Assembly (NCBI RefSeq): GCF_008806325.1
Contig: NZ_WACR01000007.1
Coordinates: 62,001-126,000 of the forward strand
Direction of reading: 5' to 3'
Length of the DNA: 64,000 nt
Origin: Salibacter halophilus
GTDB taxonomy: Bacteria > Bacteroidota > Bacteroidia > Flavobacteriales_G > Salibacteraceae
Shown here: piece after piece, positions 13,281-62,248 of the stretch
Position numbering within the stretch: the stretch's first letter is position 1
How the letters are laid out: each line of letters starts with the position of its first letter
Position numbers and translations under genes: made by a program
The notes under the pieces: generated by a model
The model's input: the letters and a program-made list of their open reading frames with translations, nothing else
Database searches by the model: none
Told to the model about the DNA's origin: nothing

Positions 13281-15419
13281 ATGATTAAAAGAATTATAGC
13301 CCTATCGGTTCTTTGTATATTATTTTTTCCTGTTATTGGTCAGGAGGGTTTGAATAGTTTGTATCAAAAACTTGAAAACTCGAAAACAGACACAGGAAAA
13401 GTAGAGGCTTTGACCGATATTACGATATACCTCTATCGTCACAATCAATTTCAAAAAACTATCTCCTATGCCGATAGTGCTATTGCGATAGGCAAAAAAC
13501 TTGATAACAGTAAATATATTGTAATCCCTTTATCCTTTAAGTCTTCAGCTTATTACGACCTGGGACAACGCGAAAAAGCAGTAATGGCAGCTAAAGAGGC
13601 CATGGCAGTTGCTGAAAAATGTGAATGTCCAGATGAAAAAGGAAGAAGCCTTATTACGTATGCTGACATCCTGAATAAAGACACACGTTATGATTCATCA
13701 ATAATTTACTACGAAAAAGCGCTTGAAGCATTAGAGGAAGGTTCTATCGATAAGGCTCATGCTTACAACAATATTTCGATTGCCTATGCTGAGAAAGGGT
13801 TTTATTACAAATCACTGGATTATTTATTGAAAGCTCTTGAGTTTTATCGTGAAAAAGAAATGGAGTATGCCCAGGCAACAGCTCTCAATAATCTAGGTGA
13901 AAAATACAGGCAAAATGATGATCACACGAATGCTATCAAATACTTGAAAAAGTCGATTAGCATTTCACGAAATGTTGGGGATACTGTTCAAATGGGGCGA
14001 GCGATGGGAAACCTTGGTCTGGCTTACAGTGAAATTCATAAAAACGACAGTGCATTTAAATATTTGAATGAAGCCCTTGATGTCAATAAGAGTATCAACA
14101 GGCTATACGGGAAAACAGTGGCTCATAGTAACCTGGCTTCTTTTTATTCTGATACTGATCAACCTGATAAAGCTTTCCCGCATTTAGAGAAGGTTCTTGA
14201 ATACTCTCAAAAGTTAGGCGTGAAAAGAGGGCTTTACTATGGTAATTTAGGTTTAGGCAGAGCCTATTACATGAAAGAACAATATGATTCAGCACTAAAA
14301 TATATCAATAAAGCTAAACAAGTTATTCAAGGCTCTACCGATGATGGTGTTAAAATGGGGCTGTATGATGGCTATCACGATATCTACAAAAAGCTAGGTC
14401 AATTTGATAGTTCTCTTTTTTACTACGAAAAGTATGTAACAATCAAAGACAGCTTAGATGATGCCAGCAGGCAAAGCAGAATTGATGAGCTGTCAATGAA
14501 GTTTGAAGCTGAGCAAAAAGAAAAAGAAAATGCTGTTTTAAGAGCTGAGAACTTGAAAGCTCAAAAAGAGTCGAATTATAAAACTTTGATCATATGGGTT
14601 TCAGTTGTATTAGTAGCTGGCCTTATTGTTATGGTGGTTTTGCAGTTTCGATACAATAAGTCAAAAAGTGATTTAAACGAAAGGCTTCTTGCCACAAACA
14701 CTAAAATTGCCCAAAAGAATGAGGAGCTAAAAAAGCTTAATGAGGTCAAAAACCGAATGCTTTCTATTGTAGGACATGATGTGAAAGGTCCGCTCAGTTC
14801 AATTTCCTCCTTGTTGAAACTCATCAACTCCGGTGAGCTGACTGCTGATCAGGAAAAAGAGTTTTTGCAGGATTTGGAATCTGAAACTTCAAAAACTTCA
14901 ATGCTCCTCGAAAACTTACTACATTGGACAAAGTCACAGTTTGACGGGCTCGAAGTTCATCTCGATGAAAGAGAGTTAAAAGGTGCCGTTGATCACATTG
15001 TCTCTCTTTACGAAAATCCTATTCGCAAAAAGAATATTGTAATTGAAAACACGATTGATCCAAACGACAAAGCAGTAGTTGATAAGCAACTTCTCGATCT
15101 TATTTTGAGAAATCTGCTATCAAATGCTATCAAATATGTGTATGAAGGAGGGAAAATCAGATTTGATTGTGAAAAAGAGGACGGTAAAGTACGCTTGAAG
15201 GTTACCGACAACGGTATGGGAATGTCACAGGAGAAAATCGATACGCTTTTTGCTAAAAGCTCATCAACGCTTGGAGCAAACAACGAAAAAGGAACAGGAC
15301 TCGGTTTGGTTCTGACCAAAGACGCTGTGGAACAATGTGGTGGAAGTCTTAAAGTTGAAAGTGAAAGAGGCAAAGGAAGCACGTTCATTCTCGAACTCCC
15401 TTTGCCTGGAAATAATTAA
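13281..15419 (+). CDS. TPR-containing sensor histidine kinase
   Basis: 712 aa from the ATG at 13281 ([21 protein letters not shown], a signal peptide); a longer in-frame start exists upstream but would bury the signal peptide. Residues about 25-400 are tetratricopeptide repeats (for example [31 protein letters not shown]), which would lie in the periplasm. One membrane helix near 433-453 ([19 protein letters not shown]) leads into a coiled coil and the HisKA box [13 protein letters not shown] with the phospho-acceptor His near 499. The HATPase part has [10 protein letters not shown] (N box), DNGMGMS (G1) and [11 protein letters not shown] (G2). No response regulator is adjacent, so the partner is unknown. 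It converges on lysS with a 4-nt overlap. Confidence 0.9.
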
Positions 15420-17146
15420 TCCTTCCCTTCAAACCATTTTTTTACATCTTCTAATTGAAGAGCTGGAATGTCGAGCTTGTTTTTCTTTCTGAAACCATTC
15501 AGTTTTTGATGAACCTGAGTTGATTTCATTTCGAGTAGTTCTTCAACTTTCTTGAAACCTGCTTTTACAATTGTCTCAGCCCATTCTTTTGTGATGTCGA
15601 GTTTTTCCTGAAACTCTTCAGGTGTAGCCTGAGTCGGCTTTTTCTCAGGGCGCATTTGCGGGAAGAATAATACTTCCTGAATGCTTTCCTGGTTTGTGAG
15701 AAGCATGATCAACCTGTCCATTCCAATTCCCATGCCTGATGTTGGAGGCATTCCGTATTCCAGTGCACGAAGGAAATCCTGATCGATAAACATGGCTTCA
15801 TCATCACCTTTCTCGCTCAGGCGAAGCTGTTCTTCAAAGCGCTCGCGTTGATCTATTGGATCATTGAGCTCAGAATAAGCGTTTGCAATTTCTTTCCCGT
15901 TTACAATAAGTTCAAATCTTTCGGTCAGATCCGGGTTTTCGCGGTGCTTTTTACAAAGTGGCGACATCTCTACCGGGTAATCTGTAATGAAAGTTGGCTG
16001 AACGTAATTAGCTTCACATTTTTCGCCAAAGATTTCATCAATGAGCTTTCCTTTTCCAAAACACTCATCAACTTCAATGTCGAGTTTCTTGCACACTTCT
16101 CTCAATTCGGCTGCATCCATTCCGCGAACATCAATGCCTGTATGCTCGAAAATAGCTTCCAGAATTGGAACTCTTTTAAAAGGAGCTGTAAAGTCGATTT
16201 CTTTATCACCAACTTTTACTTTTGAAGAGCCATTCACTTTGTTCACAACAAACTCCAACATTTTTTCAGTGAAGTCCATCATCCAGATGTAATCTTTGTA
16301 AGCCACGTAGATTTCCATCACTGTAAACTCAGGGTTATGTGTGCGGTCCATTCCCTCGTTACGGAAGTCTTTGGCAAATTCATAAACTCCGTCAAATCCA
16401 CCAACGATAAGGCGTTTTAAGTACAGCTCATTAGCGATTCTCAAATACAATGGAATATCGAGTGCGTTGTGATGAGTAACAAAAGGCCGTGCTGCTGCAC
16501 CACCCGGAATTGGTTGAAGAATAGGCGTTTCAACCTCCATGTATCCTTTGCCATTGAAGAATTCACGCATTGCAGCAAAAGTTTGCGTGCGCTTCACGAA
16601 AGTGTCTTTCACTTCACGGTTCACTACCAGGTCAACATAGCGCTGGCGGTGACGCAATTCCGGATCGACAAAAGCATCGTGCGTGTTTCCTTCAGAATCT
16701 GTCTTTACGATTGGCAATGGGCGAAGTGATTTTGACAGTATAGTTAATTCATTAACGTGAACTGTAGTCTCGCCCATTTTCGTTTTAAATACTTTTCCGC
16801 GAATACCTATAAAGTCACCAATATCGAGCAGTCGCTTGAAAACTTCATTGTAAAAAGTGGTGTCTTCACCTTCGCAAATATCGTCACGGGTGATGTAGAG
16901 CTGAATGCGGCCACTGCTGTCCTGTAGCTCAGCAAAAGAAGCTTTTCCCATGATGCGCTTGCTCATGATTCGGCCTGCTATTACCACATTTTCCAGCTCT
17001 TCGCCATCTTCAAACTTCTTCTTGATCTCGCTGGATGTTGTGTTTACATAAAACTGCTCTGCCGGATAAGGATCTATCCCTAACTCGCGCATTCTTTTTA
17101 AACCTTCTCTTCTTACCTGTTCCTGCTCAGATAGTTGTTGACTCAT
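15416..17146 (-). CDS. lysS: Lysyl-tRNA synthetase, class II
   Basis: 576 aa from the ATG at 17146 ([23 protein letters not shown]). The OB-fold anticodon domain covers about residues 55-160 ([31 protein letters not shown]). The class II catalytic core has motif 2 [20 protein letters not shown] and motif 3 [16 protein letters not shown]-terminal extension of about 75 residues after [12 protein letters not shown], ending VKKWFEGKD, is seen in Bacteroidota LysS. It charges tRNA-Lys in the cytoplasm. A TACCTTTG promoter element lies 34 nt upstream. The 10-bp element at 15923 falls in the [10 protein letters not shown] segment. Confidence 0.95.
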
Positions 17147-55625: not shown

Positions 55626-58109
55626 ATGAAAAAATTAATCTTTTTCTCTCTGGTCATTTTTGCACAATCTATTTTCGGTCAGAACCCGGAGTGGGACGCG
55701 GCACGCATCAGGCATGAAATGGAAAAGCTGAATACTGTTGGCAATGTCCTGTATTTGGCAGCACATCCCGATGATGAAAATACACGCCTTATCACCTGGT
55801 TGGCCAATGAGAAAAAAGTGCGAGCAGCATACCTTTCGCTTACCAGAGGAGATGGCGGCCAAAACCTAATCGGTGATGAAAAAGGACCGCTCATGGGCTT
55901 GGTCAGAACCCAGGAGCTGATGGAAGCCCGCAACAACGATGGAGGAGAACAGTTTTTTACACGAGCACTCGATTTCGGATACAGCAAAACAGCCGAGGAA
56001 ACATTTGAAAAATGGAACCGAGATAGTATTCTGGCAGATGTCGTTTACACTATTCGCCAGTTTAAGCCTGATGTGATTGTGACGCGTTTCCCACCAAACG
56101 GATATGCCGGTCACGGACACCACACAGCATCGGCAATGTTGGCAGATGAAGCTTTTAAAGCAGCAGCTGATCCAACTCAGTTTTCGGCATCGGCTGAGAA
56201 GTTTGGAGCCTGGCAGGTGACACGCCTATTCTTCAACGCGAGTTCGTGGTGGGATGAAGACATCGCAGATCGAGCTGATGAATACGTGACCGTTAATGTT
56301 GGAAAATACAATCCGCTTCTCGGGAAAGAATACACTGTGATTGCAGCTGAAAGTCGAAGTCAGCACCGTAGCCAGGGGTTTGGCGATGCGCGTGATCGCG
56401 GTGAGTCGATCGAGTACCTCGAATTGCGCAAAGGCGAAGAAGTAAAATCAAACTCGATGTTCGATGGTATTGACTTAACCTGGGATAGAGTAAAAGGGAG
56501 CAGACAGGTTCAAAAAATGCTCAATAAAGCGCTTGCCAGCTACGATCCGCAAAACCCTGATGCCAGCATTTCGGCTCTGATCGATATTTATTTTGCGATT
56601 AAAGAATTACCGGATTTTTATCAAAAAGAATACAAACTCAATCAGTGCAAAGAACTCATTGCTGCTTGTGGTGGATTTTGGTTTGAATTCCTGGCTGAAG
56701 AAGACAAAGTCGCAGCAAACACGGAGGTCCCCGTTAAGTTTGAAGCTATTTCACAGCTTAACACACAACAAAAGCTCAAAGAAATCAAGGTTGGCGAAAA
56801 GTCGTGGACTGTCAACGAAGAACTCGGCAATGAGGTCACGGCTCTGAACGATACACTCAAAGTAGCAGATCAAAAAACAGTGCCTTATTGGCTTTGGTCA
56901 GACCCCGAGCACAACATGTTCCCCATTCCTGTTCCGGAGTGGCGCAACATGCCTGAGACTCCGGCAGTTTTTCAGGCAGATTTCATCATTGAAACCGAAA
57001 AAGGCGATATCCCATTTACGCGTGATATCCGCTACAAGTGGGTGAGCCGAAAGGACGGAGAACTTTACAAACCGTTTCATATCATTCCGCAGGTTACCGT
57101 TACGCCCGATGAAAAAACAGTGCTTTTTGGCAGCATGGAGCCAAAAGAGGTAACGGTAAAAGTGAAAACGTACAATGCATCTAAAGAAAAGGTGATTGTA
57201 AAACCACAATTACTTAAAGGCTGGACTGCAGAGCCGGAATACGTTGAAAAGAAAAACGTTGAAAAAGGACATACTTTCTTCGCAACTTTCACTCTTTTCC
57301 CAACTGAGGATCAGGGTAATTTTGAAATGAACTTTTTGGTGAATGGCGAAAAAGCGCACGATATCAAAGAAATCGATTACCGACACATCGAAAATCAACT
57401 CGTGACACCAAAAGCTTCAATCAATCTTGTGAGAGCTGATATCAAAACTGTAGGTGATAGAATTGGTTACATCATGGGATCTGGTGATGAGGTGCCAACT
57501 GCCCTTGAACAAATGGGATACAGTGTAGATATCCTCGACCCCGAGCGACTAACATTCGATGTGTTGAATGATTACAGCTCAATCGTGTTGGGAGTTCGTG
57601 TTTACAATACCACACCGGCTATTGTCGATCTTCACGGAACGTTGAACAAGTATGTGAAACAAGGTGGAAACCTGGTTGTGCAGTACAACAAGAGTTATGG
57701 ATTAATCAGTGACAAAATTGGTCCTTATGACTTAAAAATTGGTCGTTCTCGCGTCACAGTTGAAGAAGCTCCGGTAGCTTTTCTGAATCGCGAACACGAG
57801 TTATTCAATACGCCAAACAAAATCACCGAAAACGATTTTGACGGCTGGGTGCAGGAACGCGGACTTTACTTCCCTGAAGAATGGAGCGATGATTACGAAG
57901 CTTTAATCGGGTGGAACGATCCCGGAGAAGATATGAAAAAGGGAGCGTTACTCGCTGCCGAATATGGGAAAGGCCGCTTCGTTTATACCGGAATTAGCTT
58001 CTTTAGAGAGCTGCCGGCTGGAGTTCCGGGAGCATTTAGGCTTTTCGCGAATATCGTGAGTTATGCTCCGCAAAATACTAATGGTCAGAACCAAACGAGC
58101 GATGAATAA
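55626..58109 (+). CDS. Secreted PIG-L family deacetylase
   Basis: 827 aa. Signal peptide (MKKLIFFSLVIFAQSIFGQ) whose end holds the 10-bp element. The PIG-L/LmbE zinc deacetylase domain (residues about 40-330) has AAHPDDENTRLI (His and Asp ligands), TRGDGGQN, RTQELMEARNNDGGEQFFTRALDFG and the HGHH ligand in YAGHGHHTASAML. The C-terminal half (about 380-827) is Ig-like and ends in a glutamine-amidotransferase-like fold (VDLHGTLNKYVKQGGNLVVQYNKS). PIG-L enzymes remove N-acetyl groups from amino sugars; here the site is the periplasm or surface. Four element copies occur in this one gene. The 3' end overlaps the 44-aa membrane peptide gene. Confidence 0.9.
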   Translation: MKKLIFFSLVIFAQSIFGQNPEWDAARIRHEMEKLNTVGNVLYLAAHPDDENTRLITWLANEKKVRAAYLSLTRGDGGQNLIGDEKGPLMGLVRTQELMEARNNDGGEQFFTRALDFGYSKTAEETFEKWNRDSILADVVYTIRQFKPDVIVTRFPPNGYAGHGHHTASAMLADEAFKAAADPTQFSASAEKFGAWQVTRLFFNASSWWDEDIADRADEYVTVNVGKYNPLLGKEYTVIAAESRSQHRSQGFGDARDRGESIEYLELRKGEEVKSNSMFDGIDLTWDRVKGSRQVQKMLNKALASYDPQNPDASISALIDIYFAIKELPDFYQKEYKLNQCKELIAACGGFWFEFLAEEDKVAANTEVPVKFEAISQLNTQQKLKEIKVGEKSWTVNEELGNEVTALNDTLKVADQKTVPYWLWSDPEHNMFPIPVPEWRNMPETPAVFQADFIIETEKGDIPFTRDIRYKWVSRKDGELYKPFHIIPQVTVTPDEKTVLFGSMEPKEVTVKVKTYNASKEKVIVKPQLLKGWTAEPEYVEKKNVEKGHTFFATFTLFPTEDQGNFEMNFLVNGEKAHDIKEIDYRHIENQLVTPKASINLVRADIKTVGDRIGYIMGSGDEVPTALEQMGYSVDILDPERLTFDVLNDYSSIVLGVRVYNTTPAIVDLHGTLNKYVKQGGNLVVQYNKSYGLISDKIGPYDLKIGRSRVTVEEAPVAFLNREHELFNTPNKITENDFDGWVQERGLYFPEEWSDDYEALIGWNDPGEDMKKGALLAAEYGKGRFVYTGISFFRELPAGVPGAFRLFANIVSYAPQNTNGQNQTSDE

Positions 58110-58236
58110 ACCCGACATTGAAGATAAGGTTAAATCACCACCGGTTTTCAAAAGCTGGAAGGGACTGTACATTTTTGTACTTGCTTTTCTTCTGGTTCAG
58201 ATTGTAGCGTACTGGTTCATTTCAAATATTTGGTAA
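58102..58236 (+). CDS. 44-residue single-pass membrane peptide
   Basis: Starts at ATG 58102, overlapping the PIG-L stop by 8 nt, and ends at TAA 58234-58236, 10 nt before the symporter ATG. It reads MNKPDIEDKVKSPPVFKSWK, then a hydrophobic helix LYIFVLAFLLVQIVAYWFIS. The overlap, the tight spacing and the downstream SSS-type symporter argue for a real small membrane protein, possibly a symporter partner like the small subunits known for some SSS transporters. No homolog can be named from the sequence alone. Confidence 0.65.
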   Translation: MNKPDIEDKVKSPPVFKSWKGLYIFVLAFLLVQIVAYWFISNIW

Positions 58237-58246
58237 AACACTTTGC

Positions 58247-59959
58247 ATGACACTCACCGATTGGATTGTACTCGCAGGAACTCTTTTGCTCATCGTTGGA
58301 TACGGTGCGTGGAAAACGCGGAAAAACGAGAGTATTTCCGGGTTTTTGAAAGGAGATAACCAGCAAAACTGGTGGACAATCGGGTTGTCGATAATGGCCA
58401 CACAAGCCAGTGCGATTACTTTTTTGAGTACGCCCGGGCAGGCATTTGAAAGTGGGATGGGATTCGTCCAGTTTTATTTTGGATTGCCCATTGCAGCTGT
58501 GATTATCTCGGCAGTTTTTATTCCCATTTACTACAAACTCAATGTTTACACAGCTTACGAATATCTCGAGAGTCGTTTCGGATTGCCGACCCGGCTTTTC
58601 ACGGCTATGCTGTTTTTGATTTCACGTGGGTTAGCGGCCGGAATCACCATTTACGCTCCGGCAATTATTCTTTCGACTTTGCTCGGTTGGAATCTCTATC
58701 TCACTAATATTCTCGTTGGTGTTTTAGTTATCGTTTACGTTGTTTCGGGAGGTACACGTGCCGTGAGTCTCACACAAAAGTGGCAAATGGGTGTGATCAT
58801 GGGTGGGATGTTCCTCGCATTCGGTTTAATCATTTCCTATCTACCTGACGAACTCGATTTTGGCGAAGCCGTCAATCTTGCCGGGGAAATGGGGAAAATG
58901 GAAATTGTTGATACTTCTTTTAATCTCGAAAACCGCTACACCTTGTGGACCGGTCTTTTGGGAGGTTTCTTCCTGGCGCTCTCGTATTTTGGAACAGATC
59001 AGTCTCAGGTTCAGCGTTATTTGGGTGGGAAATCAGTTGCTGAATCCCGGTTTGGGTTGTTGTTTAACGGTCTTTTAAAAGTCCCGATGCAACTTTTCAT
59101 CCTGTTTGTGGGAATTATGGTTTTCGTGTTTTTCCAGTTCAATGAGCCACCTGCATTTTTCAATCGACCCGGGATGAAAGAAGCTCTTCAAACTGAGCAC
59201 GCACAAAAGATCAAAGATTTGGAAAGCGAGTACAGTTCACTCTATTCTGAAAAAGAAACTGCGCTTACAACTTACATGCTTGAAGAAGGATCTGAAAAAG
59301 AGCAGGCCTTAGAGAAAGCGAAAAATATTCAGAACCAATCGGATGAGGTGCGGTCAGAACTCAAGCAAACCCTCAAAAAAGCTGACCCGCTAATCGAGAC
59401 CAAAGACACCGATTATGTTTTCCTTACATTCATTTTAGGCTACATGCCGCAGGGAGTTGTGGGGCTCTTGCTCGCGGTGATTTTATCTGCAGCCATGTCG
59501 AGTACAGCCGGAGAAATCAATGCGCTTTGCTCCACGACAATGGTGGATTATTACAAGCGATTGTCGGGTAAAACGAGCAGTGAAGTGAATGAAGTTCGCA
59601 TGTCGCGATTGTTCACCTTGATTTGGGGTGTTTTGGCGATAACCGTTGCGCTCTCGGCAAGTTTGTTTGAGAATTTGATTCAGCTCGTGAATTTGCTCGG
59701 TAGTTTATTTTACGGAACGATTCTCGGGATTTTCCTTGTAGCTTTTTTCCTGAAAAAAATTGGAGGAAAGCCAACACTTTGGGCCGGAATTTTGGGTGAA
59801 ATCGTTGTGCTGACCTGTCACTTTTTAACTGTTTACGAAGTCATCGAGATCGGATATTTGTGGTACAATCTCATCGGTTGCGGAGCAGTGATTATTTTTG
59901 CTGTATTATTCAATCAAATATTTCCATCCGATGAGCGACCAAAAGTACAACACCAGTAA
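58247..59959 (+). CDS. Sodium/solute symporter (SSS family)
   Basis: 570 aa with about 13 membrane helices. The family motifs are in the N-terminal half: SIMATQASAITFLSTPGQAFESGMGFVQFYFGLPIAAVIISAVFIPIYYKLNVYTAYEYLESRFG and GGTRAVSLTQKWQMGVIMGG. A soluble Glu/Lys-rich cytoplasmic stretch (residues about 305-375) sits between helices, and ILSAAMSSTAGEINALCSTTMVDYYKR is a further family segment. It imports a small solute with Na+; the cargo is unknown but may be the product of the secreted PIG-L enzyme. Its end overlaps the ridA-like start by 29 nt. Confidence 0.88.
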   Translation: MTLTDWIVLAGTLLLIVGYGAWKTRKNESISGFLKGDNQQNWWTIGLSIMATQASAITFLSTPGQAFESGMGFVQFYFGLPIAAVIISAVFIPIYYKLNVYTAYEYLESRFGLPTRLFTAMLFLISRGLAAGITIYAPAIILSTLLGWNLYLTNILVGVLVIVYVVSGGTRAVSLTQKWQMGVIMGGMFLAFGLIISYLPDELDFGEAVNLAGEMGKMEIVDTSFNLENRYTLWTGLLGGFFLALSYFGTDQSQVQRYLGGKSVAESRFGLLFNGLLKVPMQLFILFVGIMVFVFFQFNEPPAFFNRPGMKEALQTEHAQKIKDLESEYSSLYSEKETALTTYMLEEGSEKEQALEKAKNIQNQSDEVRSELKQTLKKADPLIETKDTDYVFLTFILGYMPQGVVGLLLAVILSAAMSSTAGEINALCSTTMVDYYKRLSGKTSSEVNEVRMSRLFTLIWGVLAITVALSASLFENLIQLVNLLGSLFYGTILGIFLVAFFLKKIGGKPTLWAGILGEIVVLTCHFLTVYEVIEIGYLWYNLIGCGAVIIFAVLFNQIFPSDERPKVQHQ

Positions 59960-60365
59960 AGCACCCAAGCCTGTTGGCTTATATCCTCACGCACGCAAAG
60001 CAGGGAACTTGTTATTCCTTTCGGGAGTTGGTCCGCGCACAGCCGGATCTGACCAAAACGACAGCGGTGTTCCCGGTTTGAAACTCGACCACAACGGAAA
60101 CTTTGAAGAGTTCGACTTTGAGGCTCAGGTTCACAGCGTGTTCAACAATGTGAAAGAGATTTTGGAAGCCTCAGGATCTGACTGGAATCAACTGGTTGAT
60201 GTAACGGTTTTTTTAACGAACATGAAGCGCGACTTCAAGACGTTCAATAAGATTTACGCTGAGTATTTTAAGGATAATCAGCCATGCCGCACAACAGTGG
60301 AAATAAGCTCTTTGCCAACGCCAATCGCAATCGAATTGAAGTGCGTGGCGAGTTTGGAAGATTAA
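59931..60365 (+). CDS. RidA/YjgF family protein (2-aminomuconate deaminase-like)
   Basis: 144 aa from the ATG at 59931 (MSDQKYNTSKAPKPVGLYPHARKAG). The fold has LLFLSGVGPRTAGSDQ (near residue 30), VHSVFNNVKEILEASGSDWNQLVDVTVFLTNMKRDF and the catalytic-site loop PCRTTVEISSLPTPIAIELKCVA, where the Arg binds the carboxylate. PHARKAG and SGVGPR resemble the branch that includes 2-aminomuconate deaminase, but the main role of the family is hydrolysis of reactive imines and enamines. The 10-bp element at 60045 encodes the GSDQ loop, and a one-mismatch copy is at 60174. Confidence 0.85.
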   Translation: MSDQKYNTSKAPKPVGLYPHARKAGNLLFLSGVGPRTAGSDQNDSGVPGLKLDHNGNFEEFDFEAQVHSVFNNVKEILEASGSDWNQLVDVTVFLTNMKRDFKTFNKIYAEYFKDNQPCRTTVEISSLPTPIAIELKCVASLED

Positions 60366-61183: not shown

Positions 61184-62248
61184 CTACTTCGCCATTTCAA
61201 CCTCCCACTGCGGAGATTTTATTTGTTCAACGATGATAGGGTCTAAAGTCGATCTAAGCTCGCTCCCTTTTGGGAACATAAAGCTGTAATAATCAGTCTT
61301 GAGTGTTTTATCGACTATCACTAACTCGTCATTGTAGCCATTAGTTTTGATGAAGTGATTGAGGATAGGTTTGTCATAAACGAAGAAATCCAGTTCGTCA
61401 TTTTTAAGCGCTTCCAAACCACTTTCAACATTTGCGTATTCTTCAAATGAAACTCCGTTTTGAGTCAGCGTTTTTGAAGTGCTTGTATTTTTAACAGTTC
61501 CCACTGAAAACTTTTTCAGATCGCTAAAGTTTTGAATTTGCGCATCGAGCGATTGTACGGTTAATGAACTGGCTATACTCGCTGTTAAACCACTGATGAG
61601 AATGATAGCAGCAAACATCCAAATAAACCCGATGATTCTACCACCAAAAGTGCGAGGTGCTTTATCTCCGTAACCAACTGTAGTCATCGTCACAGCACTC
61701 CACCAAAAACCATCGCCAATTCCTTTTGAACCTTTTCTAAACTCTTCGTTTTTGCCTTTTTCGAAGACCCAGATCAGCAGTCCGAATATGAAAATGACAA
61801 CCACTAGCACGAGCGTAGCCGAAAAGAAATCGGCACTAAAAAGGTTTTTGATCATCTTGAGCATTTCGTTTTCATCGCGCTGAGCCAGGGTCGTTGATGA
61901 AATGTAGTAAGGCTGAGAGAAATCCAATTTCTGCATTCTTTGCGAGGTCACTGTTACGGGGTTTATACTCAAATCTACTTCGCCATTTGCTGTTGCGTCA
62001 ATGAGCTCATCAATTGTTTCGTATTTGACGTACTCATATTCAGATCCGAGCTGGCCATCAACTAATTGCCAAAGCTCTACGCTCAACCCCTGAATGGTGC
62101 CCTGTTCTTCATACACAAACGGAGGAGCCGGCTTGATGCCAACCTTTATCGTTTGTTTTTTTGAATTGAGAGAATCAGCCTCCTGGCTGAATCCAACTGT
62201 TGAAAAAATAGCTAGAAGAGGAATCAATAATAACTTGAAGATTTTCAT
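61184..62248 (-). CDS. GluR0-like ligand-gated potassium channel
   Basis: 354 aa. Signal peptide (MKIFKLLLIPLLAIFSTVGFSQ). The ligand-binding lobe S1 (residues about 33-135) has KVGIKPAPPFVYEEQG and TVTSQRMQKLDFSQPYY, where the SxxR Arg (104) is placed as the carboxylate-binding Arg of glutamate receptors. Helix M1 (about 141-163) is followed by a pore loop TMTTVGYGDKAPR with the full K+ selectivity filter TVGYGD at 190-195, then helix M2 with SGLTASIASSLT. Lobe S2 (235-350) has VYDKPIL with an acidic residue at 292. This is the order S1-M1-P-M2-S2 of prokaryotic ionotropic glutamate receptors such as Synechocystis GluR0. It is convergent with the SDR gene, 6 nt apart. Its ligand is not known. 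Confidence 0.88.
   Translation of the reverse strand: MKIFKLLLIPLLAIFSTVGFSQEADSLNSKKQTIKVGIKPAPPFVYEEQGTIQGLSVELWQLVDGQLGSEYEYVKYETIDELIDATANGEVDLSINPVTVTSQRMQKLDFSQPYYISSTTLAQRDENEMLKMIKNLFSADFFSATLVLVVVIFIFGLLIWVFEKGKNEEFRKGSKGIGDGFWWSAVTMTTVGYGDKAPRTFGGRIIGFIWMFAAIILISGLTASIASSLTVQSLDAQIQNFSDLKKFSVGTVKNTSTSKTLTQNGVSFEEYANVESGLEALKNDELDFFVYDKPILNHFIKTNGYNDELVIVDKTLKTDYYSFMFPKGSELRSTLDPIIVEQIKSPQWEVEMAK

Follow-up and report, generated by a model that had tools for sequence, protein, structure and literature searches.

A conserved single-helix membrane peptide encoded before a Bacteroidota sodium:solute symporter, a candidate auxiliary subunit

Results

Between the genes for a large PIG-L family deacetylase and a sodium:solute symporter of Salibacter halophilus lies a small reading frame that we find to be conserved, under selection as a coding gene and associated with this symporter subfamily. 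We regard it as practically certain that the 44-residue frame is a real protein-coding gene. Our preferred reading of its product, to which we give a probability of roughly three in four, is that of an auxiliary subunit, with one helix, of the SSS-family Na+ symporter encoded next to it, on which it would work as MAP17 does on SGLT2.

The peptide gene and its neighbours

The window analysed here is a stretch of 64,000 nucleotides. The peptide gene occupies positions 58102..58236 on the + strand, with its ATG at 58102 and its TAA at 58234-58236, and the translation of this window ORF is MNKPDIEDKVKSPPVFKSWKGLYIFVLAFLLVQIVAYWFISNIW (44 residues). Upstream on the same strand, 55626..58109 encodes the large PIG-L family deacetylase (827 aa; Pfam PF02585, E 9.6e-14), putatively secreted as judged by eye from its N-terminus MKKLIFFSLVIFAQSIFGQ. 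Downstream, 58247..59959 (+) encodes the proposed partner, a sodium:solute symporter of 570 aa (SSF, Pfam PF00474, E 1.9e-42; TIGR00813) whose nearest solved structures are SiaT, SMVT, SMCT1, NIS and SGLT. An earlier note, made from the letters of this DNA, had placed the peptide between a deacetylase and a symporter, and the Pfam results agree; its spacings are also exact, with 8 nt of overlap between the PIG-L ORF, which ends at 58109, and the peptide ATG, and a gap of 10 nt from the end of the peptide TAA at 58236 to the symporter ATG at 58247. The next gene, for a Rid/YjgF family protein (59931..60365, +; Pfam PF01042, E 8.2e-27), has a start that overlaps the end of the symporter gene, and a Rid gene was found by tblastn 3' of the symporter in some relatives as well (L003, L004 and L009).

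The description of the peptide as unannotated holds in one sense only, that no family in Pfam or NCBIfam matched the window peptide at E <= 1. When 39 relatives were scanned singly against the same two collections, scattered weak matches appeared, each family in at most four members; we rejected these single-member matches (E ~0.001-0.1) as chance similarity on a hydrophobic helix.

Conservation in place and at the codon level

The earlier note had pointed to the syntenic position in related genomes as the place to look for the same frame, and there it is kept. Our first survey covered 42 symporter loci in 41 genomes (relatives of the window's genome, the window included); 37 of these loci have a small one-helix frame whose end lies at the symporter start or beside it, and the remaining five (G001, G002, G048, G050 and the second copy of G042) lack it in place. 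The second survey took 80 loci of named genomes, fetched with the symporter alignment alone, and a profile built from 39 peptides was searched against all six of their frames. The best profile match falls just upstream of the symporter and on the correct strand in 79 of the 79 testable loci, where even the weakest matches (E 0.15) are correctly placed. The 80th locus, L118, begins 7 nt before the symporter match, so its upstream DNA is not readable and it was left out of the 79. Peptide and symporter are separated by at most 60 nt at 77 loci, by 61 nt at L098 and by 190 nt at L076; in many relatives the two genes share a 4-nt ATGA stop-start overlap, and in others the gaps are very short. At least one genome is common to both surveys, the peptides of L028 (G054) and L137 being identical, and G000 and G054 belong both to profile A1 and to the 296 genomes described below.

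Selection on the codons, which the earlier note had named as a second thing to look at, is purifying. From 116 peptide genes we chose 50 disjoint pairs by symporter distance (up to 0.35); pN was lower than pS in 48 of them, and the members of the other two were identical or one change apart. The pooled pN/pS was 0.34 and dN/dS ~0.15, at a pS of 0.69, meaning that synonymous sites are near saturation. Non-synonymous changes made up 1030 of 1800 against an expected 80% (P ~1e-103, with changes treated as independent). A previous dN/dS of 0.10 from 31 pairs was set aside as biased, because those pairs had been picked by lowest peptide pN, and is superseded by the 50-pair figure.

A few loci carry additional copies. 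At L076 the peptide frame occurs again ~1.9 kb upstream of the symporter, in a copy that diverges at its end. The operon occurs twice in G351 (C1:19431-23216 and C1:3843198-3847483), with the peptide frame intact in both, three stops in one symporter copy and PIG-L broken up. A collection of plasmids gave no symporter match at E 1e-80.

Anatomy of the peptide

AlphaFold2, supplied with an alignment of 59 relatives, predicts one helix at residues 19-43, where block pLDDT exceeds 90, in line with the single membrane helix claimed earlier from the letters. A Trp and a Tyr four residues apart (W19 and Y23 in the window) are each ~99% conserved over 118 aligned rows, and after them recur V/L, L/I, I, F/Y, I/L, T/S and a terminal aromatic. 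The column entropy (117 distinct rows, Neff 59) has a strong 100-degree helical period, matched by 0 of 20000 shuffles, and this period persists without the W and Y (P 0.0003). One side of the helix is held fixed along its whole length, as would be expected if it packs on protein. Over 117 sequences, lysines and arginines number 353 before the helix and 53 in the last six residues, and this concentration suggests by the charge rule that the head is inside (N-in); the call is a soft one, because the head is also acidic, with 258 D/E.

Might the frame instead be a leader, whose translation merely opens the start site of the symporter and whose sequence is irrelevant? The 4-nt stop-start overlaps and very short gaps suit such translational coupling, but a leader would have to accommodate the residue-level selection, the near-invariant W and Y and the conserved helix face, as well as the unlinked copies of G001 and G002 and the one that G111 keeps ~15 kb from the symporter. 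From these we conclude that the peptide product matters, and we consider the leader explanation highly improbable, although translational coupling may exist in addition to a function of the product.

Co-occurrence with the symporter

We searched 296 genomes of the phylum with cut-offs of E <= 1e-90 for the symporter, E <= 0.001 for the peptide and E <= 1e-60 for the large PIG-L. The symporter was found in 114 genomes and the peptide profile in 87; both occurred in 85, the symporter only in 29, the peptide only in two and neither in 180 (Fisher P 5e-46). Despite the many SSS candidates in these genomes, there is usually one peptide-profile match per genome, and 81 of the 88 matches lie directly before the symporter. 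The seven others belong to G086 and G180, which have no symporter, to G332, and to G085, G097, G111 and G157, where the peptide lies ~15 kb from the symporter. Judged by open-frame length, none of the 88 matches is a natural peptide-symporter fusion. The G180 match, sitting inside a 504-codon frame, was taken as false; a separate match in G056, with neither symporter nor PIG-L around it, was put down to chance.

For the 29 genomes of the symporter-only class, every upstream region was then inspected. A wider profile found the peptide in 16 of them (E up to 0.0016); another nine have a small one-helix hydrophobic frame in place, judged by eye and beneath the reach of the profile (E 0.07 in G331); and the remaining four (G219, G170, G193 and G201) have no peptide upstream of the symporter. 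With G048, G050 and the second G042 copy, this makes seven cases of a symporter lacking an adjacent peptide, and the peptide is therefore not strictly required.

The same survey bears on another idea, in which the peptide would be a small membrane protein in its own right, of broader function (inhibition or stress regulation, for instance), and would affect the symporter only indirectly. An unlinked copy behind a SPOR-domain gene (G002) and the orphan copy in G086 fit such a role, yet nearly all matches in the 296 genomes adjoin this one symporter and genomes without the symporter are almost always without the peptide; we judge an independent role to be quite improbable.

Small hydrophobic frames also precede more distant symporters (37-42% identity) at L170, L176, L177, L179, L180, L182, L184, L185 and L187. 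The profile detects them at best marginally, and they are perhaps diverged members of the family, or make up another family built alike.

Symporter or deacetylase as partner

A possible objection to a symporter subunit is that the peptide serves PIG-L, as its membrane anchor or partner, and that its position before the symporter merely reflects the operon. In most loci PIG-L does adjoin the peptide or lie close to it (a PIG-L match is present in 64 of the 79 named loci), and the two genes often overlap. Moreover, G086, a genome rated 100% complete, has PIG-L and then the peptide (C19, L188 993-3540) and no symporter at E <= 1e-20. We nevertheless think this objection unlikely to be correct, for the peptide and symporter are both kept in the 15 named loci without a PIG-L match. 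Of the 296 genomes, 87 have large PIG-L and 82 of these 87 also have the symporter; among the 32 genomes that have the symporter but lack large PIG-L the peptide profile still matches in 18. Conversely, G170, G193 and G201 keep PIG-L and symporter and have no peptide. Some room for the deacetylase is left by G111, where a small PIG-L lies close to the symporter.

Genomes in which the operon has come apart speak to the same question. PIG-L is on a separate contig in G010 and G042, with peptide and symporter still together, and G001 and G002, of the window's genus, retain all three genes, each on a contig of its own. These last two assemblies are fragmented (290 and 410 contigs, respectively), but the separation is real because the flanking genes differ: the peptide gene of G002 comes after the SPOR-domain gene and before an acetyltransferase/FemAB-like gene. 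The earlier note's interpretation of the peptide as linked to the symporter draws support from these genomes in which PIG-L is missing or elsewhere. Five genomes with no close symporter match (G030, G034, G035, G059 and G047) yielded neither PIG-L at E <= 0.001 nor a peptide better than E 0.1.

Evolutionary rates were compared over 61 loci that have all three genes, a PIG-L match being required. Peptide distances correlate with those of the symporter at 0.83 and with those of PIG-L at 0.78; the partial correlation is 0.50 for peptide and symporter given PIG-L (bootstrap 0.36-0.61) and 0.27 for peptide and PIG-L given the symporter (0.10-0.44), and the symporter is ahead of PIG-L in 95.8% of bootstraps. 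This co-variation favours the symporter and would be compatible with a tie to both. It replaces a first run of 67 loci, in which any long upstream frame had been counted as PIG-L and 7 of the 67 were without the HPDD motif; the 61-locus correlation is weaker, with the same sign.

By eye, the relocated symporters of G002 (L198) and G001 (L199) stand beside genes resembling rhodopsin and carotenoid genes. At L197, from a genome without large PIG-L, a short PIG-L of 287 aa (14731-15597, -; E 1.9e-25) is divergent to the symporter.

Comparison with known small partners of SSS transporters

PMC10803289 describes MAP17 (PDZK1IP1) as packing on TM13 of SGLT2 and calls it an essential auxiliary subunit. 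The peptide resembles MAP17 in having a single transmembrane helix, according to AlphaFold2, and in its neighbour: MAP17 partners an SLC5/SSS symporter, and the window symporter shares that fold family. The peptide's link to its symporter is a genetic association, where MAP17 binds SGLT2, and a counterpart of TM13, the MAP17 contact in SGLT2, is hypothetical in the window symporter. The two also differ in length and orientation, MAP17 having roughly 114 residues and lying N-out, against the 44 residues and predicted N-in orientation of the peptide. In a search of PDB chains that included the SGLT-MAP17 entries, the best E for the peptide profile was 0.27, and none of the seven matches up to E 10 was named MAP17.

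DUF4212 and DUF485 are two-helix families that adjoin other SSS transporters. We take DUF4212 (PF13937) to be the small subunit encoded with VC_2705-type symporters. Like the peptide, it is a small protein of the membrane for which an SSS symporter has been proposed as partner, and it has a W near the start of its first helix, but it is a 79-position domain with two hydrophobic stretches in the members found, whereas the peptide has its one helix. The window peptide has no PF13937 match at E <= 1, and DUF4212 is absent from the matches of the 39 relatives at E <= 0.1. Homology to the first DUF4212 helix, which is alike by eye, was rejected as chance, the hhalign value of 14.7 being reached by 20 of 150 column shuffles. 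DUF4212 matches occur in 33 of 99 genomes, G000 not among them.

DUF485 (PF04341), presumably the family of YjcH, next to ActP, has ~88 positions and matches in 3 of the 99 genomes (2 over its cut-off), again not in G000. It too is a small membrane protein from an operon with an SSS transporter, given in PMC6498577 as acs-yjcH-actP. The peptide has no PF04341 match and no alignable profile similarity to DUF485.

By these profile comparisons, the peptide is without detectable homology to MAP17, DUF4212 or DUF485. In common with the auxiliary small subunits of SSS transporters, its gene is linked to the symporter gene and conserved with it. We file the peptide as a new, unnamed family within a kind of part that is already known, the auxiliary small subunits of SSS transporters. 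Full-text literature searches listed no paper describing such a partner for this operon; small-protein catalogues such as PMC11364881 may hold the sequence.

Discussion

As an auxiliary subunit, the peptide would work as follows. The frame would be translated into a short cytoplasmic head, one transmembrane helix starting at the cytoplasmic face and an outer end of a few residues, and coupled or closely spaced translation (the 4-nt stop-start overlap of many relatives) would produce peptide and symporter together. One helix face would then pack along the symporter within the membrane, and the peptide might help the symporter to fold, to remain in the membrane or to cycle. We infer the binding, its stoichiometry, the N-in topology (from the charge rule) and the effect on transport.

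A broader proposal, for which we see the chances as evenly balanced, is that SLC5 symporters of the Bacteroidota type in this clade consist of two components, with an ancient single-helix peptide of ~35-50 residues as an obligate or near-obligate part, and that they represent an independent and widespread bacterial counterpart of the MAP17 type.

Peptide and symporter are in the same frame at 16 loci, and by reading the stop as glycine we could fold the pair as one chain. In the fused AlphaFold model of one such locus the symporter fold is good (pTM 0.79), with SiaT (5nva) as the top match and further matches to SMCT1, SGLT2 and NIS. The model places the peptide helix poorly, with a block pLDDT of ~46-66, and for that reason we claim no docking.

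A one-helix protein kept beside this symporter clade across much of the phylum, and lacking a Pfam or NCBIfam entry, is a component that studies of transporter function would omit. If it is a needed subunit, the symporter expressed alone would fail or mislead, and the two proteins would offer a simple bacterial pair in which to test how an extra helix stabilises or tunes a carrier of the SGLT fold.

Other features of the window

Profile matches of the window symporter to solved SSS structures break off near residue 300 and restart near 391. The insert missing from these matches (residues ~303-390, window ~59153-59416) is helical with good confidence in the fused AlphaFold model, and it is likely a soluble helical hairpin of this subfamily. 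Further along the window, the 354-residue product of 61184-62248 (-) combines a solute-binding domain (SBP_bac_3) with ligand-gated channel and ion-channel domains, and its filter reads TVGYGD; judging from these features, it is a bacterial ionotropic-glutamate-receptor-like channel.
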